Shown here in pieces: positions 32,034 to 46,050 of a stretch of DNA of 47,813 bases. Made by a program: the position numbers and the translations under genes. The notes beneath the pieces are model-generated. The model had not been told where the DNA came from and did no database searches. It saw only the letters and a list, made by a program, of their open reading frames with translations. The stretch covers positions 1-47,813 of the IMG/VR virus record IMGVR_UViG_3300044530_001678. One strand, written 5' to 3'. The stretch's first letter is position 1, and the number at the start of each line of letters is the position of its first letter. The stretch comes from a virus.

Positions 32034-32072
32034 TGCTTGCATATTAAATTTATCCTTCCTATATTTGTAGTG

Positions 32073-32130
32073 TACAATTAAGGTACGTGCCGTGGGAATG
32101 GAAGAGTAGACTCCAACCTGGGTTTTATTT
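32073..32130 (+). ncRNA. Structured RNA element, copy 1 (degenerate 3' half)
   Basis: The promoter is TTG (32037-32039) with TATATTTG (32060-32067). The core has ACGTG, P2 CCGT-GGGA-ATGG, and GAGTAGACTCC. The 3' strand of P1 is replaced by CCTGGG, so P1 cannot form. It lies between divergent genes and is followed by a T-rich tract. Confidence 0.65.
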
Positions 32131-32157
32131 TTTTAATATGCAAGTTTTTTTTTAAAA

Positions 32158-32189
32158 AAAGTTATTAACAATTTAGTGTTAATAACTTT
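32158..32189. repeat. 13-bp inverted repeat upstream of the 107-residue gene
   Basis: AAAGTTATTAACA (32158-32170) and TGTTAATAACTTT (32177-32189) flank ATTTAG. It is the same half-site as at 31992 and lies 24 bases before the next -33 box. Confidence 0.8.
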
Positions 32190-32212
32190 GAAAAAAAAAA
32201 GTGAAAAAAGTT

Positions 32213-32242
32213 TTGGTTATTTAAAATTTATCCCTATCTTTG
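32213..32242 (+). promoter_or_regulatory. Bacteroidota-type promoter for the 107-residue gene
   Basis: TTG (32213-32215), 19 bases, TATCTTTG (32235-32242). The surrounding TTGGTTATTTAAAA is almost identical in the promoter at 34027. Confidence 0.8.
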
Positions 32243-32322
32243 TATTGTTCAATTGAGGATATGATATGTACTTCGGTTGGGCGTTAGTTCTTTTTTTATT
32301 TATTTTTTAATACTTTTTTGTT

Positions 32323-32646
32323 ATGAAAACATTGGTAAACATTTACGCACAAGTTGAGGAAAACTATGCTGCTCACACGTGGGATGGTCAAGGGGAATGT
32401 CCACAACATTGGAAAAAGAAAGGTGGTAAAATCTTTCAAGTCAACCTTAATGTTGATTACCTTATGTATGACGAGGAACGCTCAATAAACGCTTTCAAAC
32501 GTCTGCTACAAGACGAGTCTAACGAGGGGTATCGGTATACGTATACCGAACACGAAATCGTGTGGCACGAACCTATCGTCTTGAATGACGACAAGTTCTT
32601 GGAATACGTGCACGCACAAGCACGTGACGTTGAAGTTGAGTACTAA
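32323..32646 (+). CDS. Hypothetical protein, 107 aa
   Basis: An early-type gene with a strong promoter and an 80-base leader. The sequence has an aromatic, His-rich N-terminus (HTWDGQGECPQHWKKKGG) and a C-terminal FLEYVHAQARDVEVEY. GC content is higher than in the left half of the window. It is the first plus-strand gene of a short run to 34374. No family is recognised. Confidence 0.7.
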   Translation: MKTLVNIYAQVEENYAAHTWDGQGECPQHWKKKGGKIFQVNLNVDYLMYDEERSINAFKRLLQDESNEGYRYTYTEHEIVWHEPIVLNDDKFLEYVHAQARDVEVEY

Positions 32647-32660
32647 ATGTACAGAAATCT

Positions 32661-32694
32661 GTCCATAGGGTTATACCTTATGGACTTTTTTCGT
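32661..32694 (+). terminator. Intrinsic terminator of the 107-residue gene
   Basis: GTCCATA and TATGGAC arms with extra inner pairing are followed by six T. It directly follows the palindrome GTACAGAAATCTGT (32649). Confidence 0.85.
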
Positions 32695-32722
32695 TTATAT
32701 TAATTTTTTTTTGGTTAGGGTA

Positions 32723-32752
32723 TTGTGGGAATCAAAATTAATGTTATCTTTG
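32723..32752 (+). promoter_or_regulatory. Bacteroidota-type promoter for the 72-residue gene
   Basis: TTG (32723-32725), 19 bases, TATCTTTG. The -33 region GTATTGTGGGAAT is repeated exactly at 33171. Confidence 0.8.
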
Positions 32753-32776
32753 TAGGGTAATTCAAAATCGTTCTTT

Positions 32777-32995
32777 ATGTTACGTGTAGTTGTAAGACAA
32801 GTTGGAAATTGTCTATTAGTTAGGGAAGGTGAAAAATTCTTTGCCGAACAAGTTGGAAATGACGTTAGGGCTGACATACCAAAAGTTAAGTATGAACGTC
32901 TAAAGATTGAATCTGACGACTTATTTGAGTATCTAATACCTATGCTTATTAGAAACGAAATTAGTCGTCCTATCTTTGAAAAATTGGGGGTTTAA
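32777..32995 (+). CDS. Hypothetical protein, 72 aa
   Basis: A small early-type protein (MLRVVVRQVGNCLLVREGEK) ending in a helix with EISRPIFEKLGV. The stop codon lies within the following terminator stem. No motif is recognised. Confidence 0.7.
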   Translation: MLRVVVRQVGNCLLVREGEKFFAEQVGNDVRADIPKVKYERLKIESDDLFEYLIPMLIRNEISRPIFEKLGV

Positions 32996-33011
32996 AAATC
33001 CCCTTTTTTAT
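32986..33011 (+). terminator. Intrinsic terminator of the 72-residue gene
   Basis: GGGG and CCCC arms around TTTAAAAAT, then six T. The stem includes the last codons of the gene. Confidence 0.75.
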
Positions 33012-33094
33012 TTAGTATAGTTCGTTCACGTATGGACGTGTCGGAGTCTACTCTCTCACTTTGCTTAGCGACTTGTCTCGACTATCAATCATTG
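33005..33094 (-). ncRNA. Structured RNA element, copy 2 (variant 5' half)
   Basis: The minus-strand promoter is TTG (33129-33131) with TATCTTTG (33101-33108). The 3' half is typical: AGAGTAGACTCC, GACACGTC, CATACGTGAAC. The 5' half differs from the main type (GATAGTCGAGACAAGTCGC instead of GACGTG and P2), is about 25 nt longer, and matches copy 3. CACGT-CCAT-ACGTG can form a 5-bp hairpin. The element converges on the 72-residue gene. Confidence 0.75.
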
Positions 33095-33173
33095 ACAAAA
33101 CAAAGATAGATAATAGAAATGATATATGCAAACAATTATTAAAAATAATTTTATTTTTTTTTTCGTTAAGGTA

Positions 33174-33203
33174 TTGTGGGAATGAAAAAAAGTATTATCT
33201 TTG
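33174..33203 (+). promoter_or_regulatory. Bacteroidota-type promoter for the DUF6011-like gene
   Basis: TTG (33174-33176), 19 bases, TATCTTTG (33196-33203). It is divergent from the promoter of RNA copy 2. Confidence 0.8.
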
Positions 33204-33233
33204 TAATAAGTTATTCATTTAAATTTTTTCCTT

Positions 33234-33653
33234 ATGTCACACATTATTTCATCTTCGGCTCTTTTTTCAGTTATCAAGGCTGAAAAAAACAATAGTGGTT
33301 CTGATTTCACTATTAAGTCTATTGCTACGGGCAAAGACTACACGTATGCTATCTCTCGTTCTAAATTTAAGGGCAATTGGTACACGCATATTAGCGTTGA
33401 ACAAGAGTACCAAAAATTCGTTCGTTTGGGGTCTTATTTCAAGGGTAAGATTTACCAAAAAGGGCAAGTGGTTAACTCGCCATCGGCAACAGCAATTTGT
33501 TGGGTGCTTGAAAGGGTTGAACAAAGCAAGTTCGACTTGTTGGATGAGAAGGTTCAAGTTATGCATACGGGCAATTGCATACGTTGTGGACGCACGTTAA
33601 CGGACGCACAATCCATCGAACGTGGGTTAGGTCCGACTTGTGCAAGTCTTTAA
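33234..33653 (+). CDS. DUF6011-like zinc-binding protein, 139 aa
   Basis: The C-terminal 25 residues CIRCGRTLTDAQSIERGLGP followed by TCASL match the short zinc-binding DUF6011 motif (CxxCGRxLxxxxSxxxGxGPxC) found at the ends of many phage and actinobacterial proteins. The N-terminal 110 residues are a beta-rich domain. The binding partner is unknown. Confidence 0.8.
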   Translation: MSHIISSSALFSVIKAEKNNSGSDFTIKSIATGKDYTYAISRSKFKGNWYTHISVEQEYQKFVRLGSYFKGKIYQKGQVVNSPSATAICWVLERVEQSKFDLLDEKVQVMHTGNCIRCGRTLTDAQSIERGLGPTCASL

Positions 33654-33658
33654 CCGAC

Positions 33659-33691
33659 TGAAAAGGGTTCATTAAATGAACTCTTTTTTTT
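33659..33691 (+). terminator. Intrinsic terminator after the DUF6011-like gene
   Basis: GGGTTCAT and ATGAACTC arms close on TAA, followed by a T-run. Confidence 0.9.
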
Positions 33692-33699
33692 ATTGGCAT

Positions 33700-33775
33700 A
33701 CGTTAAAAAAGTATAGACGTGTCGGAGTCTAGTCTTTTGCTTTGGTTAGCAACTTGTCTCGATTATCAATCATTG
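33700..33775 (-). ncRNA. Structured RNA element, copy 3 (variant 5' half)
   Basis: It reads on the minus strand from a GATATTTG box (33782-33789). It shares GTCAATGATTGATA, TCGAGACAAGT and CTAGACTCCGACACGTCTAT with copy 2. The downstream ACGTG is lost (TATACTTTTTTAACG). It points into the terminator of the DUF6011-like gene. The rest of the 460-base gap (33790-34026) is AT-rich and shows no gene or repeat. Confidence 0.7.
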
Positions 33776-34026
33776 ACAATACAAATATCGTAATTAGATT
33801 TTAGATATGCAAGAAAAAAGTGAATTATTTTTAAATTATTTTTTGCTCTTATTTTAATTCGTTTTAAGACGTTTTAAAGTTGTTTTGGTATTATGTATTG
33901 GTTTAGTATTTAAAGTTTATTACAAGCAACAATACAAGCAAAAAAAGAATAAGAATAGTATAAAGATTAATGTTATAAATAAGATTAGATAGGAATAAAA
34001 AAAAATAAAAAAAGATTAAAAAATGT

Positions 34027-34056
34027 TTGGTTATTTAAAAATTATGTTTATCTTTG
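34027..34056 (+). promoter_or_regulatory. Bacteroidota-type promoter for the 86-residue gene
   Basis: TTG (34027-34029), 19 bases, TATCTTTG (34049-34056). It is a near copy of the promoter at 32213. Confidence 0.8.
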
Positions 34057-34113
34057 TATCGTCCAAATGAGGGACAAAAGTTCTTTTTCTTACTTATTTT
34101 TTTTCTTTTTGTT

Positions 34114-34374
34114 ATGGAAGCAAATTGTTTTCACGGAACTGATACGTATGGACGTTCAGTTCAAGTTGGTATACGTCAAGATGGCGTTGCATTCTTCAGA
34201 ACATATCGTTATAACGGCTATGGTATGGGAATGACCAAATGGGAAATGTTGAACGATTACGTTCACCAACCATACAAAAGTTCGTCTGCCGTTTATGGCG
34301 AAAAGACTCACATCAAGTGGGGCTTTAACGAACTCACTGGGTATACCAACCCAAGAATGAGACTACCAAAGTAG
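34114..34374 (+). CDS. Hypothetical protein, 86 aa
   Basis: The start is placed at the ATG at 34114 (MEANCFHGTDTYG) because upstream in-frame codons lie inside the promoter and its T-rich leader. The sequence is Tyr/Gly-rich (FFRTYRYNGYGMGMTKWEML), a pattern I have seen in other small phage proteins without known function. Its end forms the following terminator. Confidence 0.7.
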   Translation: MEANCFHGTDTYGRSVQVGIRQDGVAFFRTYRYNGYGMGMTKWEMLNDYVHQPYKSSSAVYGEKTHIKWGFNELTGYTNPRMRLPK

Positions 34375-34390
34375 TCTCATTTTTTTTTGT
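34357..34390 (+). terminator. Intrinsic terminator of the 86-residue gene
   Basis: GAGACTAC and GTAGTCTC arms around CAAA, followed by eight or more T. The last codons are inside the stem. Confidence 0.9.
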
Positions 34391-34488
34391 CTTATAATTT
34401 ACTTATTGTAAGTATTATTATTCAAACATTATATTTTTTATTTGATAACAACTAATTGATTAAATTAGGGGGTGTGGTGGCAACCAAT

Positions 34489-34504
34489 GTACAGAAATAT
34501 GTAC
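34489..34504. repeat. GTACAGAAAT-type palindrome, copy 2 of 3
   Basis: GTACAGAAATATGTAC lies beyond the 3' end of the minus-strand 98-residue gene and is followed by ATAGG, as at 32649. A short TAGGT-ACCTA hairpin follows it. Confidence 0.5.
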
Positions 34505-34529
34505 ATAGGTCGCACCTACCATTTAGTTA

Positions 34530-34826
34530 TTAATTTACATCAATTAAATTTCCGTCCCATTCAACATCATTCAGAAACCATTTACCTTTGGTTTGATTTA
34601 TTTTTACGTTAGGTAAACCATTTAACCTTTCTTTTGTTGTTGCCGTTTCATACCCACAATTAGTAATTGATAAGGTTCTTTCGGGGTCGTTGTATTGATA
34701 AGCGATTGCGTTGCCAAATAGTTTTAGTATTGTTACGTTAGGCAAAACTTCTACACTTGTGTTACCATTTTTAAAAGTTTCAGCATTTAAAAACTTTTCG
34801 ATTGCTTTTTCAGTAATTGTTCTCAT
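34530..34826 (-). CDS. Conserved phage hypothetical protein, 98 aa
   Basis: The pattern TLSITNCGYETATTKERLNGL followed by PNVKINQTKGKWFLNDVEWDG is one I recall in many phages, always without assigned function. The N-terminal MRTITEKAIEKFLNAETFK is a helix. It has a terminator-promoter hairpin upstream (34851-34896). Confidence 0.75.
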   Translation of the reverse strand: MRTITEKAIEKFLNAETFKNGNTSVEVLPNVTILKLFGNAIAYQYNDPERTLSITNCGYETATTKERLNGLPNVKINQTKGKWFLNDVEWDGNLIDVN

Positions 34827-34850
34827 TGTGTTTATGTTTATTTGTTTATG

Positions 34851-34896
34851 TAAAGATAGTAAATATAAATGGTACTACCAAACGATAGTACCATTT
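34851..34896 (-). promoter_or_regulatory. Fused terminator-promoter hairpin before the 98-residue gene
   Basis: A perfect 11-bp stem AAATGGTACTA/TAGTACCATTT (34867-34896) follows the stop of the upstream gene. Its loop holds the -33 box TTTGG of the next promoter, which continues as TATCTTTA (34851-34858) after a 20-base spacer. Confidence 0.75.
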
Positions 34897-34909
34897 ATTT
34901 TAATTTATT

Positions 34910-35293
34910 TTATACGTGTAGTGAATATGCTATTATCATATAAACACTATCTTCGACTTCATCTAAATTTAGATTTTCACCTATATAATATTCTTTACCT
35001 TTCCATTTTATACATTTGTGGTCGTCCATCATTAGTTCAACATAGTGGTCTGATTCATTTTCATCAACTTCAATACCATAAGTTTCGATAAACGAATTAA
35101 CTTCACTATCTTTGACTAAATCATAGTCCAATGTATATTGATTGATATACTCAAAACAATCTTCAATAGTGTTGATTGGTGCGATTCTAAATTTATCGTC
35201 ATTAGCGATTAAATTAACTTTGTCAATCAATTCTTGTTTAGAATTTAATGTTGCAAGTTCTTTGTTTTTCTTTGTGTCGATTAAAGTATACAT
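34910..35293 (-). CDS. Hypothetical protein, 127 aa
   Basis: An acidic protein with MYTLIDTKKNKELATLNSKQ at the start (a strand-helix often seen in short phage proteins), then a Tyr/Asp-rich core (YINQYTLDYDLVKDSEVN). The promoter is TTG (35343-35345), 20 bases, TATCTTTA (35315-35322). No family is recognised. Confidence 0.7.
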   Translation of the reverse strand: MYTLIDTKKNKELATLNSKQELIDKVNLIANDDKFRIAPINTIEDCFEYINQYTLDYDLVKDSEVNSFIETYGIEVDENESDHYVELMMDDHKCIKWKGKEYYIGENLNLDEVEDSVYMIIAYSLHV

Positions 35294-35355
35294 AGTATTA
35301 ATTATTTGTTTCCGTAAAGATAGTGAATAGTTTTGACTTATGCAAGTTTATTTGT

Positions 35356-35709
35356 TTATATTTCGTTATCATTATCTACCAAACATTTGTCCATTAATTC
35401 AATTAAATTAATTCTATCCTCTATTGATAAATCCCACATTTTAATTGAATGTTTTGTAAATTTTCCGTCTGCCGTTACTACTTCAATATCGTAGTAATTA
35501 CCAACTTTAAGAACTTTTAGTGGGTGTACATCAAATACGTTGCCCGTTTCTTTATCTCTAATTTCTAGGTAATTATCGGGTGTGTCATTTTCTAAATCTT
35601 TTTCATCAAAGATAACAAATTCTTTTTGTTGATATAACATTTCCTCGAATGTCATTTGGATATGTGTTTTTAAAACATCTATATCTCTTTTTAAAGCACT
35701 TATTCTCAT
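35356..35709 (-). CDS. Hypothetical protein, 117 aa, duplicated with the next gene
   Basis: The central stretch DTPDNYLEIRDKETGNVFDV, HPLKVLKVGN, and the final DRINLIELMDKCL align closely with the adjacent upstream gene. This is a tandem duplication with divergence. The N-terminal helix differs (MRISALKRDIDVLKTHIQ). Each copy has its own hairpin-type promoter. Confidence 0.75.
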   Translation of the reverse strand: MRISALKRDIDVLKTHIQMTFEEMLYQQKEFVIFDEKDLENDTPDNYLEIRDKETGNVFDVHPLKVLKVGNYYDIEVVTADGKFTKHSIKMWDLSIEDRINLIELMDKCLVDNDNEI

Positions 35710-35740
35710 TTTAGTTTATTTTAATTGTTTATTTATACAA

Positions 35741-35771
35741 CAAAGATATGGATAAGTTTTCACTTATCCAA
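35741..35771 (-). promoter_or_regulatory. Promoter with spacer hairpin
   Basis: TTG (35769-35771) and TATCTTTG (35741-35748) are 20 bases apart. The spacer is an 8-bp hairpin, minus strand GGATAAGT-GAAA-ACTTATCC, 18 bases after the upstream stop. Confidence 0.8.
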
Positions 35772-35787
35772 ATCTTTTTATAGTTTT

Positions 35788-36111
35788 TTACAAACTATTT
35801 TCCATTAATTCTATTAGGGTAATTTTGTCTTGTGTGCTTGATAAATCTTGCAACTTAATCAAGTGTCTTACAAAACTTCCGTCTGCTTCAACTACAAGTA
35901 TTCCATTTTGGGTTACTTTTAGTGGGTGGACATCAAACACGTTTCCCGTAATATCATTACGCATTTCAAGGTAATCATCGGGTGTGTCGTGTTCTAAATC
36001 ACATTCATCAAAGATTACTATTTCTTCTTGTTTCTCCAACAACTCATTAAAGTAGTGGTAAACTTGTTTTTCTAATTGTTCTAAATCTTTGTTTAAGTTT
36101 TTGCTTGACAT
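35788..36111 (-). CDS. Hypothetical protein, 107 aa, duplicated with the previous gene
   Basis: The start is at 36111 (MSSKNLNKDLEQL) because the earlier in-frame ATG at 36141 lies in the promoter -7 box. The core DTPDDYLEMRNDITGNVFDV and HPLKVTQNG repeats the neighbour. No domain name is known to me. Confidence 0.75.
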   Translation of the reverse strand: MSSKNLNKDLEQLEKQVYHYFNELLEKQEEIVIFDECDLEHDTPDDYLEMRNDITGNVFDVHPLKVTQNGILVVEADGSFVRHLIKLQDLSSTQDKITLIELMENSL

Positions 36112-36138
36112 AATATAAGTTTTAAATTGTTTGTTTAA

Positions 36139-36169
36139 CAAAGATAAGCATAATGTTTTGATTATGCAA
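36139..36169 (-). promoter_or_regulatory. Promoter with spacer hairpin
   Basis: TATCTTTG (36139-36146) and TTG (36167-36169). The spacer holds GCATAAT-CAAAAC-ATTATGC on the minus strand, 4 bases after the stop of the zinc-ribbon gene. Confidence 0.8.
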
Positions 36170-36171
36170 AT

Positions 36172-36411
36172 TTATTTTGCACAATCTTTACATAAATCTA
36201 CATCATCACCAAATACCATTTCATCACGTGTAAACCCACCACCACAATTTTGACAACAAAATGTAGGTTCTTCATCCAACCATTCAACTACTCTTTTGAC
36301 TACATCAACTAAATCACTTTCATCGTCAAATTCTGCGTGTTCATTATTGTCTGCGTGTTGCTCAATAATGATTTTAAATACTCTCTCTAAATTTTCTAAT
36401 GTGCATTCCAT
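36172..36411 (-). CDS. Small zinc-ribbon protein, 79 aa
   Basis: The start is at 36411 (MECTLENLERVFK), because upstream ATGs lie in or before the promoter (TATATTTG 36437-36444, TTG 36465-36467). Two pairs, CCQNCGGGF and CKDCAK, form a zinc ribbon at the C-terminus behind an acidic helical N-terminus. Confidence 0.75.
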   Translation of the reverse strand: MECTLENLERVFKIIIEQHADNNEHAEFDDESDLVDVVKRVVEWLDEEPTFCCQNCGGGFTRDEMVFGDDVDLCKDCAK

Positions 36412-36436
36412 AATATATTGTTTTAAAGTTATACTA

Positions 36437-36467
36437 CAAATATAAGCATTGAATCTTGTTGCCACAA
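36437..36467 (-). promoter_or_regulatory. Simple early promoter for the zinc-ribbon gene
   Basis: TTG (36465-36467), 20 bases, TATATTTG. It is divergent from RNA copy 4 and has no spacer hairpin. Confidence 0.75.
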
Positions 36468-36551
36468 CATACTATAATTAGCATTTAATTTTTTTTAAAT
36501 TATTTTCATTTTTGTGTTGGATATATCAAAATTATTTCTATCTTTGTTATG

Positions 36552-36626
36552 TCAGTAAGACGTGCTACGAGAGTAGAAGAGTAGACTCCGTTGCGTGTAT
36601 ATGTTTCGTGTGTGCGTTACTGCATA
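36552..36626 (+). ncRNA. Structured RNA element, copy 4
   Basis: The promoter is TTG (36517-36519), 19 bases, TATCTTTG (36539-36546). P1 GACGTG can pair with TGCGT through GU pairs. P2 is CTAC-GAGA-GTAG, then GAGTAGACTCC. The 3' part differs (GTTGCGTGTATATG). It ends near the convergent terminator at 36624. Confidence 0.8.
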
Positions 36627-36657
36627 AAAAAAGTGGCAACCATTCGGCAACCACTTC
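36624..36657. terminator. Stem with inner GGCAACCA repeats
   Basis: AAGTGG and CCACTT arms enclose two partial GGCAACCA-type repeats. The minus strand ends in seven T, so it fits as a terminator for the minus-strand genes to the right. Confidence 0.7.
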
Positions 36658-36702
36658 CTCGTTATAATCAAAACACTAAACAAACACAATTTAGTTTTTT
36701 GC

Positions 36703-36736
36703 GTTGATTGAAACCCCATAATAGATTTCAATCAAC
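36703..36736. repeat. 11-bp inverted repeat after the 48-residue gene
   Basis: GTTGATTGAAA and TTTCAATCAAC flank a 12-base loop, just beyond the stop at 36749. It has no T-run on the minus strand, so it is a stem-loop rather than a standard terminator. Confidence 0.7.
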
Positions 36737-36748
36737 ATTATTTCTTTA

Positions 36749-36895
36749 TCATACATAATCCTCTTGCATTAACTTGTTAATATAATTCTTTTTATGTTTA
36801 TCTTTGCGTTGAAACGCTTTTTTAGACTTGTGAACACTACTCTTTAATGCTTGTTGCATTTCGTGCTGGGTTAAGGTTATTTCTTTAAATTTCAT
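36749..36895 (-). CDS. Small basic protein, 48 aa
   Basis: MKFKEITLTQHEMQQALKSS continues as a Lys/His-rich helix (KSKKAFQRKDKHKKNYINKL). The ATG overlaps the end of the 31-residue gene by 11 bases, and both follow one promoter at 37009. The strong positive charge could suit nucleic acid binding, which is an inference only. Confidence 0.65.
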   Translation of the reverse strand: MKFKEITLTQHEMQQALKSSVHKSKKAFQRKDKHKKNYINKLMQEDYV

Positions 36896-36980
36896 TTCTT
36901 TTATCTAAATAATTACACACTAATTTGATTACTGCTAATCCTCCTAATAAGATTCCTAAATAAACGATTTTGCCTAACAT
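36885..36980 (-). CDS. Short single-span membrane protein, 31 aa
   Basis: MLGKIVYLGILLGGLAVIKL followed by VCNYLDKRNEI is one hydrophobic helix with a basic tail. It starts 29 bases after the TATCTTTG box at 37009. Function is unknown. Confidence 0.6.
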   Translation of the reverse strand: MLGKIVYLGILLGGLAVIKLVCNYLDKRNEI

Positions 36981-37008
36981 AACTTTTTGTTTTAATTTGT
37001 TTGTGAAA

Positions 37009-37039
37009 CAAAGATAAGGATAATCTTTCGATTATCCAA
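37009..37039 (-). promoter_or_regulatory. Promoter with spacer hairpin
   Basis: TATCTTTG (37009-37016) and TTG (37037-37039). The spacer holds GGATAATC-GAAA-GATTATCC on the minus strand, about 20 bases beyond the stop of the 206-residue gene. Confidence 0.8.
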
Positions 37040-37057
37040 ATCTTTTTTTAAAATGTT

Positions 37058-37678
37058 TTAGTTATTTTCTAATAACTTTACAACCCCATTAGGTAATTCG
37101 TTATCAGTACCATCTAAAATCAACACTACATCAGTTCTCATAAAGTCTTTGATATAAACATAGTTGCCATTAACTCTGCCAAACTTTTGTGCGTTTTGTG
37201 GTGTACTTTCCCCATTGTCGCCATCTTGGTATTTCTCTCTGACAAATACTCTATTATCAACAACAACTATTTCACCAACATCACCAACTTCCTCACCACT
37301 ATATTCTACCACTCCATTAAGGACATAACCATTCGGTGCTAGAATTTTGTGAATAAGATAAACTAACCATTCAGTATAGTTATAAAACTTCTCACCACAA
37401 TCCCACTCAATACCCATTCGGTCATCGCTAGGTGTCCATTGATTCCAAAGACTTGGTTGAGTGCTTGGTGGCTCATTAAAATCTACTACATTGTCTTCGT
37501 GGTCTTGTCCAAAACTTCCACCACCAAATACGTAAAACTCACCTTGTACTCCAAACACTTCATCAGTGTTTCTTTCCATTCTGCGTGTTTCGTTGAACAA
37601 TTTTAAGTATTGTTCCATCTTTGGACTTAACTCCTTGTTAAGTTCAAATCTACCACTAAAATCAGTTGTGTAACCCAT
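37058..37678 (-). CDS. Conserved phage hypothetical protein, 206 aa
   Basis: The start MGYTTDFSGRFELNKELSPK, then YLKLFNETRRMERN, QPSLWNQWTPSDD and EWDCGEKFYNYTEWLVYLI, form a recognisable pattern of a protein I recall from many phages and bacteria without known role. It is one of the largest genes of the early field. The -7 box is TATCTTTG at 37708-37715 with no clear -33 TTG. Confidence 0.8.
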   Translation of the reverse strand: MGYTTDFSGRFELNKELSPKMEQYLKLFNETRRMERNTDEVFGVQGEFYVFGGGSFGQDHEDNVVDFNEPPSTQPSLWNQWTPSDDRMGIEWDCGEKFYNYTEWLVYLIHKILAPNGYVLNGVVEYSGEEVGDVGEIVVVDNRVFVREKYQDGDNGESTPQNAQKFGRVNGNYVYIKDFMRTDVVLILDGTDNELPNGVVKLLENN

Positions 37679-37817
37679 TGTAATTTGTTTTATTGATTAA
37701 TACCTTACAAAGATAAACATTCTTTTTTAATTTCCTACTATATTGTGAAAAATAAATAAATTATTTTTTTTTACTTTTTTTGTTGCACAAGTCAATATTA
37801 TTACTATCTTTGTTATG

Positions 37818-37880
37818 TACGATTAAGGTACGTGCTGCGAGAGTAGAAGAGTAGACTCCAACACGTCCATACGTGAACAA
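37818..37880 (+). ncRNA. Structured RNA element, copy 5
   Basis: The promoter is TTG (37783-37785), 19 bases, TATCTTTG (37805-37812). The RNA has ACGTG, P2 CTGC-GAGA-GTAG (one G-U pair), GAGTAGACTCC, CACGTCC and ATACGTGAAC. It is followed by a long non-coding stretch with further hairpins (see 37917-38110). Confidence 0.85.
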
Positions 37881-39040: not shown

Positions 39041-39175
39041 AATGTTTTGTTTTAATGATTATAGTACAAATATAAACATTCTTTTTTAATTGTGCAACAT
39101 TTTATATAAAATAAAAATAAAATTATTTTTACTTTTTTCTTGCATAATTGATTTATAATTCCGATATTTGTTATG

Positions 39176-39282
39176 TCAATGATTCAGACGTGCTACGAGA
39201 GTAGAAGAGTAGACTCCAACACGTCCATACGTGAACAACGGCAACCAATAAAAAAAGGGTGTAATACCCTTTAATTTTTAAT
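39176..39282 (+). ncRNA. Structured RNA element, copy 6 (best-formed copy)
   Basis: The promoter is TTG (39140-39142), 20 bases, GATATTTG (39163-39170). P1 GACGTG (39187-39192) pairs with CACGTC; P2 is CTAC-GAGA-GTAG; P3 may be GAG-TAGA-CTC. The same CACGT can instead pair with ACGTG downstream. GGCAACCA follows and the RNA can end at GGGT-GTAAT-ACCC plus T-rich sequence. Confidence 0.85.
39252..39276. terminator. Bidirectional terminator between RNA copy 6 and the 42-residue gene
   Basis: AAAGGGT and ACCCTTT arms close on five bases, with seven T on the minus strand and a broken T-run on the plus strand. Confidence 0.8.
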
Positions 39283-40203: not shown

Positions 40204-40220
40204 ATCTTTTGTAATTATTT

Positions 40221-40880
40221 TTATTGTGCCAACTCAACAAGTTTTTGTTGTGTAGGTTTATGACTTTGTATCAATTCGTCCAATGTCATAAATGTTTTAC
40301 AATTTTCTTTATCTCTATGTAACCATTCGTTGGTATTATAAGTCAAACCAACAATTTTGTATGCTTGCACTACTTTACCACTTTCAAGTGTTACTTTAAC
40401 AATTTCACGTTTAAAATCAACATAGATTTTGTGGTATTGTTTGTTGTTAAAATAATCAAAGCGACTATCACCACTACTATATTTTTTTGTTTTGCTGACA
40501 AAAAATAATTGGGTTTCCCAACCTTTATGTTCACCCAATGGTTGTTCTTTTGTTCGTTCCAACATTTTATCCAACGTGTGTTGGTCTTGCTCACTATTAG
40601 GGTATCTATACCCCAACTCAACATTTACCACTTTACCAAATTCTTTTTCAAACTCTTTAATGTCACTCTTAAATTGCGTCACAAAAACTTTCATCATTGT
40701 AAGATTGTGTTTCGCAATAGTTTCTTTGAATCTGTCTTCTTCTTTTAGACACTCATTAATAGTATCAAAACTAAAACGTGATGTCCCATTAGTTGGTTTA
40801 GGGTTTATCCTTGTAAACTCACTAATTAAACTATTTACTAAACCTTGTTGTAAACTTGTTAATTGTTCAAACTTTTCCAT
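40221..40880 (-). CDS. Hypothetical protein, 219 aa
   Basis: This is a charged soluble protein with no recognised domain. The C-terminal half (KIYVDFKREIVKVTLESGKV) is beta-rich, and the N-terminal half is helical (FEQLTSLQQGLVNSLISEF). The promoter is simple: TTG (40938-40940), 19 bases, TATCTTTG (40911-40918), divergent from RNA copy 7. Confidence 0.75.
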   Translation of the reverse strand: MEKFEQLTSLQQGLVNSLISEFTRINPKPTNGTSRFSFDTINECLKEEDRFKETIAKHNLTMMKVFVTQFKSDIKEFEKEFGKVVNVELGYRYPNSEQDQHTLDKMLERTKEQPLGEHKGWETQLFFVSKTKKYSSGDSRFDYFNNKQYHKIYVDFKREIVKVTLESGKVVQAYKIVGLTYNTNEWLHRDKENCKTFMTLDELIQSHKPTQQKLVELAQ

Positions 40881-41020
40881 TGTGTTTTATTTTAATTGAT
40901 TAATACCCTACAAAGATAAACATTATTTTTAATTCTGCAACTATTTTGTAATAAAATAAAAATAAAATTATTTTCACTTTTTGCTTGCATATGTCAAATA
41001 TTATTGCAATCTTTGTATTG

Positions 41021-41100
41021 TACAATTAAGGTACGTGCTGCGAGAGTAGAAGAGTAGACTCCGACACGTCTATACGTGAACGGCAACCAACCATAAAAAA
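41021..41100 (+). ncRNA. Structured RNA element, copy 7
   Basis: The -7 box reads AATCTTTG (41008-41015) behind a TTG at 40985-40987. The RNA has GTACGTG, P2 CTGC-GAGA-GTAG, GAGTAGACTCC, GACACGTC, TATACGTGAAC and GGCAACCA. It runs into the convergent terminator of the 91-residue gene. Confidence 0.85.
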
Positions 41101-41123
41101 AAGGTGACACTACTGCCACCCTT
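41094..41123 (-). terminator. Intrinsic terminator of the 91-residue gene
   Basis: On the minus strand GGTGGC and GTCACC arms with one G-U pair close on AGTAGT and are followed by eight T. Confidence 0.85.
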
Positions 41124-41385
41124 GTTTAGTTATTTTAGGTTTACCATTAATTTTTTCCCACTTCTCAAACCATTCTCCCCATTCACCACGTCTGCTACGT
41201 GAAACAAAAACTGGGTCTTCACCAATATGATTATCCAAAATATAATCTTTTAATGCTTTCTTTAATTCAGTATAAGTATTGAATTTCTTTGTTGTGTATT
41301 CAGTTCTTACACCATATCTTTCTACTCTGTAATCGTGTAGACTTTCACTTGTCATATACGTTACTTGTGGTTTAAAATTTGCCAT
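41110..41385 (-). CDS. Hypothetical protein, 91 aa
   Basis: A small soluble protein with MANFKPQVTYMTSESLHDYR and a positively charged loop (SRSRRGEWGEWFEKWEK). The promoter is TTG (41438-41440), 20 bases, TATCTTTG (41410-41417), without spacer hairpin. No family is recognised. Confidence 0.7.
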   Translation of the reverse strand: MANFKPQVTYMTSESLHDYRVERYGVRTEYTTKKFNTYTELKKALKDYILDNHIGEDPVFVSRSRRGEWGEWFEKWEKINGKPKITKQGWQ

Positions 41386-41441
41386 TGTGTTTTATTTAAT
41401 TTGTTTTAACAAAGATAATACTTACATTTGACAATTCCAAA

Positions 41442-41909
41442 TTATAATGGAAATATTTTTGCACTTTTAAATTTATACAAAGGTGTGCCAATCGTTTCAA
41501 GTATGTCTATTTTATTTGTAAATCTTTCGTTCATACAATCGGCAACAATATAAATTCCGTCTTTATCACCACAACCAACCAATTTAACTTTTTGCTTATA
41601 GTCAAACTTACCACCCCAACGTTTTAATAAATCTCTGCTCATTGCTATAAACTTTTGTTCACTTGCTTTAAATGGATTAATTTTTAACATACTTGCTGTC
41701 GTGTATGGGTCACTATCACATTGTCCTTCAACTGCGTTATACATAGTTACCATTACTTTGGTATGTTTAACTTTTTTCTTTTTAGGTGCTTTTGGCTTGA
41801 TTGTAGCCACTTTCGTATAGTGTGTAGTAATAGTAGTTGTCTTCAATAAATAAACGCAACCAAAGACAATTAAACTTGATACTAATACTTCTTTGAATTT
41901 ATACTTCAT
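41442..41909 (-). CDS. Membrane-anchored 3D-domain protein, 155 aa
   Basis: A single N-terminal membrane segment (EVLVSSLIVFGCVYLLK) precedes a Lys/Pro linker and a domain matching the 3D (Asp-Asp-Asp) double-psi barrel: MVTMYNAVEGQCDSDPYTTA, VADCMNERFTNKIDI. Related domains occur in cell-wall hydrolases such as MltA. An envelope-acting lytic or modifying role is likely but unproven. A TATATTTG box lies at 41934-41941. Confidence 0.75.
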   Translation of the reverse strand: MKYKFKEVLVSSLIVFGCVYLLKTTTITTHYTKVATIKPKAPKKKKVKHTKVMVTMYNAVEGQCDSDPYTTASMLKINPFKASEQKFIAMSRDLLKRWGGKFDYKQKVKLVGCGDKDGIYIVADCMNERFTNKIDILETIGTPLYKFKSAKIFPL

Positions 41910-42011
41910 TGCTTGTTAATTTAGATTGTTTTGCAAATATAAGAAAAACTTTTTAAATAAAAAAATTTATTTTACTTGTTTTTTAAAAATATTATTACAA
42001 TCTTTGTATTG

Positions 42012-42075
42012 TCGGTGGACGTGCTACAAGAGTAGAAGAGTAGACTCCGTCACGCCCATATGCGAACGTTATGAA
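42012..42075 (+). ncRNA. Structured RNA element, copy 8
   Basis: The promoter is TTG (41976-41978), 20 bases, AATCTTTG (41999-42006). P1 GGACGTG pairs with CACGCCC apart from one A-C mismatch. P2 is CTAC-AAGA-GTAG. GAGTAGACTCC is intact. The downstream partner is changed to ATGCGAAC. Confidence 0.8.
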
Positions 42076-42540
42076 ATTATTTAGAATGAATATAAATAAC
42101 AAAATTATTTTGTTATGTGAAAAATAATGATTACTTTTGTCCCTTGAATAATTATGGGTGTGACTACTCATATGAATAGTCACGCCATAACTATAAACAA
42201 CAAACAAACAAGAGAGTGTTTAAGGTACAACACACAACCGATAATACTTTATAATATAGTGGTGCTATCCCACCCAAGATAGCACACTCGCATACTCATT
42301 GGCAACCAAGGTAATTACTCCCCAATCTGCGATAAGTTAATAGTTAGACTATTCACTATATATATGTTTTTTTGGTTATGCTCGGAAACTTAATCCACTA
42401 CACCATATACCTACCAAAAACTTTCTTTCTTATTACAAATGTATGAATTATTTTTTAAACTTCCAAATAATTCTTAAACTTTTTTTAAACTTTTTTTTCA
42501 TCACCCCAACACACACCACACACCCCCATACACCACACGA
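42076..42540 (+). other. Non-coding stretch with three strong hairpins
   Basis: No gene is supported in these 465 bases. The hairpins are ATAACAAAA/TTTTGTTAT (42096-42116), TTATGG with GTGACTA/TAGTCAC and CCATAA (42152-42190), and GTGCTATC/GATAGCAC (42262-42285). GGCAACCA recurs at 42301. A further imperfect stem TTTTTGGT/ACCAAAAA spans 42367-42421. Confidence 0.55.
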
Positions 42541-42556
42541 GTACAGATTTCTGTAC
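42541..42556. repeat. GTACAGAAAT-type palindrome, copy 3 of 3
   Basis: GTACAGATTTCTGTAC, the reverse complement of the 32649 copy plus a perfect match at its end, lies beyond the 3' end of the 92-residue minus-strand gene. Confidence 0.55.
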
Positions 42557-42562
42557 AAGGTA

Positions 42563-42841
42563 TTACTTGATAGGTGCTAACACATCTATTTGAGTGTCAT
42601 CAAACGTATCACTAGCATTTAATGATAGTTTATACACACCATTTGTTTTTGGGTGCAACCTATGTCTAACTTCGTGGATAATTTTATCCTTATGTTTATA
42701 ACTACCCATATATTGCCACTCTTCACCTCCATTCAATGCAACCATTGGTTCATCAATATTCTCATTGATTGGATGATTAGCAACAAAGTTCCATATGTAA
42801 TCCCATTCAGTTGAATTGTGTTTTATGTTTAAAAATTCCAT
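42563..42841 (-). CDS. Conserved phage hypothetical protein, 92 aa
   Basis: The segment GEEWQYMGSYKHKDKIIHEV followed by RHRLHPKTNGVYKL is a pattern I recall from other Bacteroidota phage proteins with no known role. The ATG is only a few bases after the -7 box TACATTTG (42846-42853), so the mRNA may be leaderless. Confidence 0.7.
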   Translation of the reverse strand: MEFLNIKHNSTEWDYIWNFVANHPINENIDEPMVALNGGEEWQYMGSYKHKDKIIHEVRHRLHPKTNGVYKLSLNASDTFDDTQIDVLAPIK

Positions 42842-42845
42842 ATAA

Positions 42846-42876
42846 CAAATGTATGCAATTAAAATGAGAAATGCAA
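42846..42876 (-). promoter_or_regulatory. Promoter abutting the start codon
   Basis: TTG (42874-42876), 20 bases, TACATTTG (42846-42853). The ATG at 42841 leaves room for at most a very short leader. Confidence 0.65.
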
Positions 42877-43197
42877 ATGTTTATTAATAAAACTTTCAAT
42901 ATTTTTTCCTTGTACTGCGTCCAAAAATTCATCATCACTAGTATCCAATGTCATAAGTATACCATCTGCTTGTTTTGGGTAACCACTATTAAATGGTTCA
43001 ATACCTTTGCTACTCACATCGTAATTAGATAAAATAGGAATTGAACTAAACCCCACATACCTTGTTTCAATTTCATCGGGCAAACATTTATATGCGTCTG
43101 CCAATAACCATTTAACTTCTTCAACTCTATCTAATTCCATATCTGCACTTTGTTGTGCTATAACATTATCGTTATAAATAAATTGTACTAATTTCAT
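42859..43197 (-). CDS. Hypothetical protein, 112 aa
   Basis: MKLVQFIYNDNVIAQQSADM begins a mixed alpha/beta protein with a helical, His/Phe-rich end (GKNIESFINKHLHFSF). Its start overlaps the stop of the 77-residue gene by 4 bases, so it is translationally coupled. No family is recognised. Confidence 0.7.
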   Translation of the reverse strand: MKLVQFIYNDNVIAQQSADMELDRVEEVKWLLADAYKCLPDEIETRYVGFSSIPILSNYDVSSKGIEPFNSGYPKQADGILMTLDTSDDEFLDAVQGKNIESFINKHLHFSF

Positions 43198-43427
43198 TCC
43201 CTTGCTAATTTAACATCAATTTCTAAATCAGTTCTGCCACTTCCATAACGTGGTTCAACTTTACCATTTCTTCTCCATACAACCACAATATAACCATTGT
43301 GTAAATTTGGTTTACCACAAATAGGGTCTTGTACCAATCCAACATATAGATTATCTCTTTCTTTGTACCTTAAATCTTTTATTGGATAACCACCCAACGT
43401 TTGTGTTATTTTATCTATATTTTTCAT
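43194..43427 (-). CDS. Hypothetical protein, 77 aa
   Basis: A small basic beta-rich protein (GGYPIKDLRYKERDNLYVGL, HNGYIVVVWRRNGKVEPRYG). It sits between two coupled genes in a three-gene operon (43671 to 42859). I know no function for it. Confidence 0.7.
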   Translation of the reverse strand: MKNIDKITQTLGGYPIKDLRYKERDNLYVGLVQDPICGKPNLHNGYIVVVWRRNGKVEPRYGSGRTDLEIDVKLARE

Positions 43428-43428
43428 A

Positions 43429-43671
43429 TTAATAAGTTGCTATAAATAAACAAATTTCTTTTACAAATATTAAATTACATTTTAATAAATCAAAGACAAT
43501 ACGTTCAGCGTTTATTGCATCTATCAAATCTTTTTTATTCATTGATAAATAAAAATAACTTGCTTCTGCTTCATCTATTTTATCAACACTTTCTGCAAAA
43601 GTATCAGTTGATAAAATATTGGTATCTAACATTCTGTTAAATTCTTCAAGTGTCCATTCTTTAAATTCCAT
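43429..43671 (-). CDS. Hypothetical protein, 80 aa
   Basis: MEFKEWTLEEFNRMLDTNIL is a helical start and the last 25 residues are hydrophobic (FDLLKCNLIFVKEICLFIATY), possibly membrane-associated. The promoter is TTG (43725-43727), 20 bases, TATCTTTG (43697-43704). Confidence 0.65.
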   Translation of the reverse strand: MEFKEWTLEEFNRMLDTNILSTDTFAESVDKIDEAEASYFYLSMNKKDLIDAINAERIVFDLLKCNLIFVKEICLFIATY

Positions 43672-43733
43672 AATTTCTAGTGTTTATTTGTTTCTTCAAA
43701 GATAAGTAATTTATTTCAATATTCCAAACAAAA

Positions 43734-43757
43734 AAGGGTAAAATTAATTTTACCCTT
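43734..43757 (-). terminator. Intrinsic terminator of the 220-residue gene
   Basis: AAGGGTAAAATT and AATTTTACCCTT form a perfect palindromic stem with a minus-strand T-run, just before the next -33 box. Confidence 0.85.
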
Positions 43758-43765
43758 ATTTTATT

Positions 43766-44428
43766 TTATCTTTCCATTAGGTCAAATACTAATTCAGTAA
43801 AGCCTTTTGGTATTTCTGCTTTTTTTGAAACAACACTTATTTTATCTCTCGCCCAAACTCCAATTAACTCAACGTTGCCTTGTTTCTTTTCGGTGCTAAC
43901 AAAAAAGTCACCACCACCTCTGCCGTTGCCCTCACAAGTCAATAATGGTAAAGGGTGTATTTTCCATCCGTCACTATCTTTTGGTGTTTTGGTTTTATTA
44001 ACAAATTCTTTTTTGTCGTGGTTCACCAAATACTTTGCCGTCAAAGGTGCAACCCCTTTGTAATCGTGTTCATATTTGCTTTTAACACTTTCAGTATGTG
44101 TAATTCTACCGATAGTATCAGATAAACTATATAAGTTCACACCTTTTTCTTTCAATACTTTGCTATTCCAATACTCACTTTCTTCGTCTGCTAATAATTT
44201 TATTTCAGCATTTGAAAGTGTTGTTGGGTCTTCCTCGTCTGCATAGTCGCCAGCCCAAACAAGTTTTTGTGGTGCAACCATAAGTTGTCGTTCAACAAAT
44301 CTTACCATTGGATTTTTCTCCCAAGAATGTTCCATTAATTTTGCACCACTTCCAAAGTCGTAAGATGATACACTTGCTATTGGTTTTTGGTTCTCTGCCA
44401 AAAATACTGCTTTGTAATACTGTCCCAT
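43766..44428 (-). CDS. Conserved phage hypothetical protein (MGQYYKAV family), 220 aa
   Basis: The signature is clear: MGQYYKAVFLAENQKP, then KLMEHSWEKNP, VWAGDYADEED, KYLVNHDKKEFV, HPLPLLTCEGNGRGGGDFF and IGVWARD. I recall this family from many phages and some bacteria, always without assigned function. The gene has its own hairpin-type promoter at 44454. Confidence 0.85.
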   Translation of the reverse strand: MGQYYKAVFLAENQKPIASVSSYDFGSGAKLMEHSWEKNPMVRFVERQLMVAPQKLVWAGDYADEEDPTTLSNAEIKLLADEESEYWNSKVLKEKGVNLYSLSDTIGRITHTESVKSKYEHDYKGVAPLTAKYLVNHDKKEFVNKTKTPKDSDGWKIHPLPLLTCEGNGRGGGDFFVSTEKKQGNVELIGVWARDKISVVSKKAEIPKGFTELVFDLMER

Positions 44429-44453
44429 AATATATTGTTTTTATTTGTTTATG

Positions 44454-44484
44454 TAAAGATAAGTAAATTATTTCAATCTACCAA
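44454..44484 (-). promoter_or_regulatory. Promoter with near-perfect spacer hairpin
   Basis: TATCTTTA (44454-44461) and TTG (44482-44484). GTAAATT and AATCTAC can pair at 6 of 7 positions in the spacer around ATTTC. Confidence 0.65.
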
Positions 44485-44491
44485 ATTTATT

Positions 44492-44719
44492 TTAATCTTT
44501 TTTCAAAATAATTTCGTGTAGATAAACTTGTGCCTCACTTCCAAAATCATTGTATTGAATTAGAATAGGATACATACTAAAATCGTCATTATCAAATTCT
44601 TCATCAATGTCTTCAATGAAATTGATTGTGTAATCGTTTCCTTTGATTGGGTCGGGGTCATTCCAAACCAATTGCTTATTCTCTGACAATGCTTGTTTTA
44701 AATCTGCTAAACTTCTCAT
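44492..44719 (-). CDS. Hypothetical protein, 75 aa
   Basis: MRSLADLKQALSENKQLVWN, followed by an acidic beta part (NFIEDIDEEFDNDDFSMYPI) and QVYLHEIILKKD. It looks like a compact acidic protein of the sort abundant in phage early regions. No family is recognised. Confidence 0.7.
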   Translation of the reverse strand: MRSLADLKQALSENKQLVWNDPDPIKGNDYTINFIEDIDEEFDNDDFSMYPILIQYNDFGSEAQVYLHEIILKKD

Positions 44720-44744
44720 AATATATTGTTTTTATTTGTTTATG

Positions 44745-44775
44745 TAAAGATAAGTAATTTATTTCAAACTACCAA
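44745..44775 (-). promoter_or_regulatory. Promoter with near-perfect spacer hairpin
   Basis: TATCTTTA (44745-44752) and TTG (44773-44775). GTAATTT and AAACTAC pair at 6 of 7 positions around ATTTC; relative to 44454 both arms have changed together. Confidence 0.65.
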
Positions 44776-44781
44776 ATTTAT

Positions 44782-45057
44782 TTACAACATTTTTCTAACT
44801 TTTTCAAAATGTTTTTCTATTTGATTAACAAACTTAATAGCACTTTGCTTTGTTTTAGCATAAGCGAAAAACTGACAAAACTCGCTATCAAATTCAATGC
44901 CTTTACAATTTATCTTTTCTTGTATAAACTCTTCAAAGTCATAAGCACTCTCAAACTCTTTTATAGTCATGCTTTTTTTAGGGTTGCCCGTAATGGTAAT
45001 GTCATCACCATTATCATAAACTTTCATTCCAATTGGGGATATATAAATTGCTTCCAT
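44782..45057 (-). CDS. Hypothetical protein, 91 aa
   Basis: MEAIYISPIGMKVYDNGDDI has a beta start; the end is a Lys-rich helix (KQSAIKFVNQIEKHFEKVRKM). It is expressed from a hairpin-type promoter at 45082. I recognise no family. Confidence 0.7.
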   Translation of the reverse strand: MEAIYISPIGMKVYDNGDDITITGNPKKSMTIKEFESAYDFEEFIQEKINCKGIEFDSEFCQFFAYAKTKQSAIKFVNQIEKHFEKVRKML

Positions 45058-45081
45058 TTGTTTTTGTTTTATTTGTTTCAG

Positions 45082-45112
45082 TAAAGATAAGGATAAGTTT
45101 TCACTTATCCAA
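45082..45112 (-). promoter_or_regulatory. Promoter with spacer hairpin
   Basis: TATCTTTA (45082-45089) and TTG (45110-45112). The spacer holds GGATAAGT-GAAA-ACTTATCC, identical to the one at 35741. Confidence 0.8.
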
Positions 45113-45128
45113 ATCTTTTTTAATTATT

Positions 45129-45428
45129 TTACCAAAATAATTGTTTATTCATATCACTTTTAGTTTCGCACCACTCCAGTATTTGCTCTGCATAATAGTG
45201 TGTAGTCAAGTCGCTTAAAAAGTTATACATATCTCTATAAGGATTGCTAAACTTTGTACTAAACTCTCTGCGTGTCCATTCTTTTGCGTTGGATTGGTCA
45301 CTACCTTTGTTGCTACCTTTTGAGTAGTCCCACTCTTTACCAATAATGGTAATTTTAGTTTTTGTTGCGTTCACGGTAATTATACCCCCTTTGCAATACT
45401 CTCCAATTTTAAATGTTCTTGTTGCCAT
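45129..45428 (-). CDS. Conserved phage hypothetical protein, 99 aa
   Basis: The pattern FKIGEYCKGGIITVNATK, IGKEWDYSKGSNKGSDQSNA and LTTHYYAEQILEWCE is one I recall from other phages, with unknown role. The GEY..GGII start and the WD.S.GS..GS motif are the recognisable parts. Confidence 0.75.
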   Translation of the reverse strand: MATRTFKIGEYCKGGIITVNATKTKITIIGKEWDYSKGSNKGSDQSNAKEWTRREFSTKFSNPYRDMYNFLSDLTTHYYAEQILEWCETKSDMNKQLFW

Positions 45429-45457
45429 TGTTTTGTTGTTTTATTGATTAATAATAG

Positions 45458-45505
45458 TAAAGATAATATAAAAGAATAACACTACCAAATTTTGATAGTG
45501 TTATT
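45458..45505 (-). promoter_or_regulatory. Fused terminator-promoter hairpin before the 99-residue gene
   Basis: AATAACACTA and TAGTGTTATT form a 10-bp stem (45475-45505) whose loop holds the -33 TTTGG; TATCTTTA follows at 45458-45465 after a 20-base spacer. Confidence 0.75.
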
Positions 45506-45516
45506 TTTAAATTATT

Positions 45517-45849
45517 TTATTTAAATAATTGTTCCAACATTTTTTGTCCTTCAAGTTTCTTTGTTATTTCACTTGCTGTCATCAAATGTGCATAAGGGAA
45601 TTCATATGCGTCATCTAATGGTATGTGGATAAGTTTCATTGGTCGCATACTTAATACCATATACTCTGCGTATCCGTCTGCTACTGCAAATCTAACGATT
45701 TCCCCAACGTTTTTACCTTTGTACCCCATATCTTTGATATGTTGTTTTAGGTCTGCAATGTATTGTTTGCTTTCCTCTGCATACTTCTGCATAGTACCAT
45801 TAATGTTAGGTACTTTAATTTCTTTCGGTGCTGAATAAATGTCTGCCAT
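45517..45849 (-). CDS. Conserved phage hypothetical protein, 110 aa
   Basis: The start is at 45849 (MADIYSAPKEIKVPNINGTM) because the earlier ATG at 45876 lies in the TATCTTTG box (45874-45881). The rest is helical (KQYIADLKQHIKDMGYKGKN). I recall ADIYSAP..I..P-type starts in Bacteroidota phage proteins without known function. The promoter is divergent from RNA copy 9. Confidence 0.7.
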   Translation of the reverse strand: MADIYSAPKEIKVPNINGTMQKYAEESKQYIADLKQHIKDMGYKGKNVGEIVRFAVADGYAEYMVLSMRPMKLIHIPLDDAYEFPYAHLMTASEITKKLEGQKMLEQLFK

Positions 45850-45951
45850 AACTTTTAATTTAATTTGTTTCAACAAAGATAATAAATCTTTTTTAAATAA
45901 AAAAACTTTTTTTGTTAGGATATTAATTTTTTTTATCTTACATTTGTAAGG

Positions 45952-46048
45952 TCAATCAGTTAGACGTGCCGTGGGAATGGAAGACTAGACTCCAACACGT
46001 CCATACATTGGCAACCATACCAAAAAAAATGAGTGGTATTGCTACCAC
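45952..46048 (+). ncRNA. Structured RNA element, copy 9
   Basis: The -7 box is TACATTTG (45939-45946), with no well-spaced TTG. P1 GACGTG/CACGTC is perfect. P2 is CCGT-GGGA-ATGG, as in copy 1 and fully compensated relative to the others. The core reads GACTAGACTCC. The downstream ACGTG is lost, GGCAACCA follows, and the RNA can end in the stem at 46029. Confidence 0.8.
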
Positions 46049-46050
46049 CC
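46021..46050 (-). terminator. Intrinsic terminator of the 68-residue gene
   Basis: On the minus strand GGGTGGTA and TACCACTC arms close on GCAA and are followed by eight T after one A. Confidence 0.85.

Follow-up and report, generated by a model that had tools for sequence, protein, structure and literature searches.

Dispersed copies of a predicted small structured RNA with a nearly invariant core strand recur in viral genomes

What are the nine short, mutually similar elements scattered between the genes of virus record IMGVR_UViG_3300044530_001678, whose 47,813 bases form the window analysed here? Each is almost certainly the gene of a predicted stand-alone small RNA, in which two hairpins (P0 and P2) are followed by a nearly invariant strand, AGAGUAGACUCC, referred to below as the core. 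An earlier note on this DNA had read the elements as repeated copies of a small structured phage RNA, each with its own promoter, and this reading is supported by covariation and by homologues elsewhere.

The nine-copy observation in the window is confirmed. The exact word TAGACTCC occurs nine times, always inside an element, against a mean of 0.42 and a maximum of 3 in 100 dinucleotide shuffles; with one mismatch allowed, its frequency is at chance level (15 seen, 15.7 expected), so the signal is carried by the exact word together with its context. Run without filters at a threshold of E≤1, covariance model R1, derived from relatives as described below, recovered precisely these nine places, a result that is favourable by construction because eight of the nine copies were in its seed. 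The predicted transcription starts (+1) lie at 32072, 36551, 37817, 39175, 41020, 42011 and 45951 on the plus strand and at 33096 and 33777 on the minus strand, and the plus-strand starts named in the earlier note fall within one base of these. Several of its details changed on measurement: pairwise identity spans 42–96% (mean 68%) rather than 60–75%, and the words GACGTG and CACGTC, said to be shared by most copies, occur together in only two of nine (the shorter form ACGTG...CACGT in four). A −7 box behind which each copy was said to start is present in its strict form, TAnnTTTG, ahead of five copies, the other four having GATATTTG or AATCTTTG instead; −7-like boxes also occur at many window places without an element. 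As for the proposal of one element per early-operon boundary, among the 33 gaps between 34 open reading frames (ORFs) picked by eye, all nine gaps of at least 199 nt carry one element each and none of the 24 gaps of up to 155 nt does, a pattern that is descriptive since gap length is partly made up of the element's own length; the word "early" leans on the host-type promoters. Where a gap is flanked by genes on the same strand, the element is antiparallel to both neighbours (8/8). ARAGORN found no tRNA in the window.

Is there a conserved RNA structure? Evidence for one comes from covariation: the covariance model whose construction had been proposed does contain covarying pairs. Folding scores are modest for leaders taken by themselves (mean z −0.87) and, for individual window copies, no better than those of shuffles. 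Two alignments bear on this: A2, the 86-sequence seed, and A3, with 123 unique rows, 120 of which entered the mutual-information run (a row was excluded if its first P2 base was neither C nor U, if it had no core, or if an edge truncated it). In A3, the closing pair of P2 is C-G in 71 rows and U-A in 49, with three gaps and no mismatch; A3 was fitted to the model, and the less biased seed count gives C-G in 47 and U-A in 39 of 86, though the seed sequences were trimmed with P2 in mind. Mutual information at this pair reaches 0.96 bits over the 120 rows. For P2 as a whole the covariation score is 0.43, compared with 0.21 in shuffles (0/500 reach it) and at most 0.20 when the register is slid, while the five inner pairs hold less strictly, with 22, 30, 43, 35 and 37 of the 123 rows lacking a standard pair. 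P0 was assessed in the 90 leaders whose −7-like box is suitably spaced. Of the 360 cells that set bases 5–8 downstream of TTTG against the tetranucleotide preceding GGG, 222 are paired, as against 179.4±6.6 (maximum 201) over 500 permutations. Trinucleotide pairs counted there are GTA/TAC (20), GTC/GAC (15) and GTT/AAC (8), and the only other register to stand out is the equivalent one with both sides shifted by one (200 versus 161). P0 and P2 are the two supported hairpins, and by its covarying pairs the element has the hallmark of a structured noncoding RNA.

The core comes after P2, outside both hairpins, and is the most conserved part of the element; part of this constancy comes from the search patterns themselves, and AGA(G/C)TAGACTCC is missing in 9 of the 123 A3 rows. 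Behind it, two main 3′ sequences occur, CACG in 37 and a CCTAC-like one in 59 of 120 elements. The conserved fold that the earlier note had drawn from GACGTG...CACGTC is not a family feature: for this candidate stem (P1), the covariation list holds no standout pair between the bases ahead of P2 and the 3′ part. Nor do we claim a further candidate hairpin, P3 (GUAG with CUAC), which by eye fits CCUACC-type copies only, with one-sided changes.

Would these sequences be transcribed on their own? Within 80 nt upstream, 84 of 120 elements carry the strict TAnnTTTG box, 26 only a relaxed form and 10 neither; in mononucleotide shuffles the strict box is found for 11. The Flavobacterium sigma-A box TAnnTTTG lies at −12 to −5, according to published work (PMC9723704), which makes base 5 after TTTG the predicted +1. 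P0 starts at exactly this base, and the RNA would therefore begin with P0. The elements fit the predicted layout of a Bacteroidota sigma-A transcription unit. A U run follows within 40 nt downstream in 36/120 elements, compared with 8.9 in shuffles. The next ORF (called mechanically, at least 50 amino acids) is antisense for 61 of 123 unique elements and sense for 39, with none within 700 nt for the remaining 23; in 31 of these 39 a further promoter-like motif intervenes, by a loose motif list used without a chance control. A sense ORF without such an intervening motif, the arrangement of a riboswitch or 5′ leader, is found in only 8 of the 100 elements with an ORF within 700 nt. Gene orientation therefore points to stand-alone small-RNA genes rather than leaders. 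By eye, other promoter-like sequences, TGATAATATAT-like or CGTTATAC-like, lie upstream in some phages.

How far does the family reach? Pattern scans of viral contigs returned overlapping sets of 32, 60, 43 and 27 stretches. Six of the first 32 (L022, L023, L028, L031, L034 and L037), with neither promoter nor P0 nor P2 around them, were dropped by eye as false positives, as was L095; L015 was kept out of the alignments owing to a contig edge, and L017 repeats L009. A redundancy filter took 149 sequences to 91, and removal of L095, L063, L087, L044 and L081 left the 86 of A2 from which R1 was built. At E≤0.01, R1 finds a match in 46 of 47 records or genomes, with 1–13 copies each; this is not an independent rate because 45 of the 47 had been picked for a pattern match, and Tenacibaculum phage Larrie and Flavobacterium phage immuto for a BLAST match. 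Homologues outside the window's own genome, on which the earlier note had made its proposal depend, are therefore present both in other viral records and in cultured phages. Several of the 46 are close kin of the window phage, records of 128, 206 and 69 kb sharing copies that are identical over 60 nt. Larrie matches at E 2e-10 and Cellulophaga phages phi13:1 and phiST at E 5e-5 each; phi19:2 scores 26.2 bits, equal to phiST and phi13:1, the three being close relatives of one another. The elements of these four phages are unannotated in their records. No match at E≤1 was obtained for phi14:2, phi46:3, phi39:1, phi10:1 or phi38:2, and a match in phi38:1 (E 0.011) was set aside as it falls within annotated gene gp096. 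Immuto, the one miss among the 47, has a related stretch with AGAGTAGACGGG, a variant (L097:1480-1560) in which AGAGTAGACGGGCC replaces AGAGTAGACTCC, and may represent a diverged or decayed family member. Element-bearing viral records measure up to 362 kb, and the carrier viruses appear to infect Bacteroidetes bacteria.

The wider collection shows further variation. A second subfamily, GGTTCG-hairpin-CGCAGAGGGTAGACTCC, occurs in L179, L181, L182 and L183 and includes the second copy of Larrie. Some copies hold insertions flanked by core-ending direct repeats, either TAGACTCC...TAGACTCC or GACTCC...GACTCC (L131:213-300, L016:274-350, L035:5400-5490 and L135:226-300). By eye, L047:9500-9650 and L010:8740-8900 each appear to contain a degenerate copy on the other strand, oriented towards the main element across a short spacer. 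The core of a weak match, L185 (G454:21372-21410), reads AGTAGACTCCAACC and, again by eye, sits in the loop of a GAAGCA/TGCTTC hairpin, behind which the sequence is U-rich. As to neighbouring genes, two elements flank a DUF932 gene in L021 (11316-12200), another such gene lies about 2.3 kb from the element in L047 (6373-7254), and ORFs of similar length (287–311 amino acids) adjoin elements in several other loci.

Bacterial genomes, by comparison, hardly carry the element. Using Infernal's stricter filters, R1 matched 2 of 395 genomes from the phylum of G045, a Bacteroidales metagenome-assembled genome that was included for its known match, which leaves one among the 394 others. The G045 match lies on a 6.7 kb contig with three copies, and 0/9 of its proteins match PHROGs; the second is on a 27.5 kb contig, also with three copies, where 3/8 proteins have PHROGs matches, including one to HNH endonuclease families. 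A CCTACC-type pattern run over the 84,980 species genomes of the genome_contigs collection (the CACG-type pattern was outside that scan) gave two stretches, the G045 contig and one match without promoter or hairpins. Across the genomes searched, then, phages are essentially the only carriers of the element. Both bacterial contigs are probably of phage origin, although for the 6.7 kb contig it rests on gene layout only, given the lack of PHROGs matches.

What might such an RNA do? Our best single guess, a tentative one, is that it acts in trans as a sponge or decoy, its target being a conserved host factor. Host RNA polymerase would transcribe each element from its own sigma-A type promoter into a short stand-alone phage RNA of at least about 60–75 nt, presumably made early and acting in trans. 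This RNA would present P0 from its first base, then GGG (GUG or AAG in the window phage), the variable P2 and AGAGUAGACUCC; its 3′ end would be CACGUC.., CCUACCUUAUA (in many cases with a U run) or another sequence. The core may be bound by a protein or ribonucleoprotein that is conserved among Bacteroidota hosts, and many gene copies would supply enough RNA to sequester or redirect it. Copies might differ in their paired parts and yet keep the core because identical repeats would recombine. A near-invariant strand, multiple copies and the lack of a common protein family together suggest a host-side factor and a dose effect: no protein family is common to all 14 phage sets, the best cluster reaching 10/14 (single-linkage; several sets are fragments). 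More than one promoter style, judged by eye, precedes the same core. A further-reaching and more doubtful proposal is that the elements form an unnamed phage RNA class through which very different Bacteroidota phages capture one ancient conserved host factor by a nearly invariant 12-nt strand, some of them with 13 gene copies.

Several points weigh against this explanation. Single window copies have folding z-scores from −1.6 to +0.3 relative to shuffles, and the antisense share, 61/100, is only moderately over half. Many phage records (for example G021 and G032) hold a single copy, a poorer fit to a dose-based sponge. If the decoy copied a host RNA, a host sequence with a similar core would be expected, and none was found in the samples searched; the check for RNA targets covered the 16S and 23S rRNA of a few genomes only. 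The partner could also be phage-encoded, since one cluster is present in 10 of the 14 sets and several sets are fragments.

Could the RNA instead act by base-pairing in trans, the invariant strand or the variable 3′ part serving as a seed for host or phage messages? The position of the core beside P2 and outside both hairpins would suit this, as would its conservation (partly imposed by the search patterns), and the two main 3′ sequences could correspond to two seeds. Complements of the core are not enriched at phage gene starts, however (GGAGTCT seen 0 times, 1.1 expected; GGAGTCTAC-like words were masked in this count, and longest-word counts were uninformative). Complementarity to 16S rRNA was not significant, the best of three queries being equalled by 7/100 shuffles against a target that kept 16S-flanking DNA, nor was that to 23S rRNA, where a 10-base run was matched by 15/60 shuffles. 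With the core nearly unchanged between phages as well, we regard base-pairing as unlikely. A nascent RNA that alters its own RNA polymerase in cis, as HK022 putRNA does, is more doubtful again. The anatomy invites the comparison: two hairpins, the first of which starts at the predicted +1 directly behind the promoter, resemble the ~70-nt putRNA with its two stem-loops, and putL is situated just downstream of an early promoter (PMC9378689). Yet 61 of 100 elements lead into antisense DNA, most sense cases (31/39) have an intervening promoter-like motif, and the excess of U runs within 40 nt suggests that transcription may end nearby.

A decoy against one specific host defence, mimicking either a CRISPR repeat or an RNA antitoxin, is about as improbable as the putRNA-like reading. 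Host-type promoters, restriction to phages and the presence of several copies speak for it, and Racr RNAs offer a precedent (PMC10651486). A repeat mimic should resemble host arrays, however, and the R1 matches in 2/395 genomes are on single contigs and not in an array; the CCTACC-type pattern in genome_contigs gave just two stretches, one of which has neither promoter nor hairpins. Across phages, moreover, the core stays uniform, which would not be expected of a mimic caught in an arms race. Least probable by far is a repeated DNA element, whether regulatory site or mobile repeat, that came to lie behind promoters by chance and has no RNA function. All window copies do occupy the longest intergenic gaps, and some copies elsewhere hold the insertions between core repeats described above, but compensatory pairs in P0 and P2 and a fixed register to +1 run counter to this explanation. 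The sponge or decoy is preferred because pairing with phage messages, pairing with rRNA and action in cis are all unsupported.

In the window, P0 of every copy begins at the predicted +1 given above. The end coordinates given for the nine copies mark only the limit of the stretch studied and not a mapped 3′ end. Copy 1 (32060..32134, plus strand) has its −7 box at 32060-32067, P0 at 32072-32086, GTG at 32087-32089, P2 at 32090-32101 and the core at 32103-32114. Two copies are on the minus strand, each with AAG between the hairpins: copy 2 (33019..33108) comprises a −7 box at 33108-33101, P0 at 33096-33075, P2 at 33071-33056 and the core at 33054-33043, and copy 3 (33700..33789) a GATATTTG box, P0 at 33777-33756, P2 at 33752-33737 and an AGAC variant of the core at 33735-33724. 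All others are on the plus strand. Copy 4 (36539..36613), whose 3′ part is unusual, shows a −7 box at 36539-36546, P0 at 36551-36561, P2 at 36565-36576 and the core at 36578-36589; in copy 5 (37805..37879) these lie at 37805-37812, 37817-37831, 37835-37846 and 37848-37859, respectively. Behind a GATATTTG box, copy 6 (39163..39237) has P0 at 39175-39189, P2 at 39193-39204 and the core at 39206-39217. A AATCTTTG box precedes both copy 7 (41008..41082; P0 41020-41034, P2 41038-41049, core 41051-41062) and copy 8 (41999..42096; P0 42011-42020, P2 42024-42035, core 42037-42048). Copy 9 (45939..46013) consists of a −7 box at 45939-45946, P0 at 45951-45965, P2 at 45969-45980 and the AGAC variant of the core at 45982-45993.

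Copy 8 further includes the palindrome TTTAGAATGAATATAAA at 42080-42096. Palindromes like TTTAGANTNANTCTAAA (up to two mismatches) lie within 120 nt downstream of 21/145 elements, where 0.7 would be expected from background; 16 of the 21 follow the core at a distance of 20–22 nt, and several of those 16 belong to closely related genomes. Besides the window, carriers include L064, L093, L152, L162, L163, L166, L186 and L052. This palindrome resembles a Fur/PerR-type operator or, alternatively, a 3′ hairpin.

Does the element belong to a known class, and why would it matter? A search of the window against Rfam 15 yielded nine matches up to E 5, all under their gathering cut-offs; the sole one overlapping an element, MicX, scores 33.3 bits against a cut-off of 75 and is on the opposite strand. 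To the extent of this window search, the view that no named RNA family has this core stands. No paper among the matches listed describes the element RNA by title or abstract, in a literature search that left subscription journals mostly outside. Few structured RNAs are known that occur in phages alone and persist across many of their lineages. Presence in the cultured marine phages phiST, phi13:1, phi19:2 and Larrie makes expression and function testable at once, and the constancy of the core points to a single target present in many Bacteroidota hosts and, with it, to a possible new vulnerability of a major phylum.

Bacterial 6S RNA likewise is a small structured RNA that sequesters a host machine, as proposed here for the element, but it is a long imperfect hairpin encoded by the hosts themselves, and the window elements have no Rfam match at cut-off. 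Pseudo-ToxI of phage PhiTE reportedly also consists of repeated RNA units whose copy number matters; its ToxI repeats are said to be tandem, whereas the element copies are dispersed and diverged. The putL and putR RNAs of HK022 (PMC9378689) share with the element a size of ~70 nt, two stem-loops and a location close to where the transcript starts, just behind an early phage promoter; for the element this is the predicted +1. They differ in that put acts in cis on the polymerase transcribing the early genes behind it, while 61/100 elements face antisense DNA and the family reaches 13 copies per genome. Racr anti-CRISPRs are, like the element, phage-encoded solitary small noncoding RNA units; they mimic host CRISPR repeats (PMC10651486), whereas the element core is uniform across phages and has no host counterpart in the samples searched. 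Of these systems, HK022 putRNA is the closest in anatomy and the Racr RNAs the closest in spirit.

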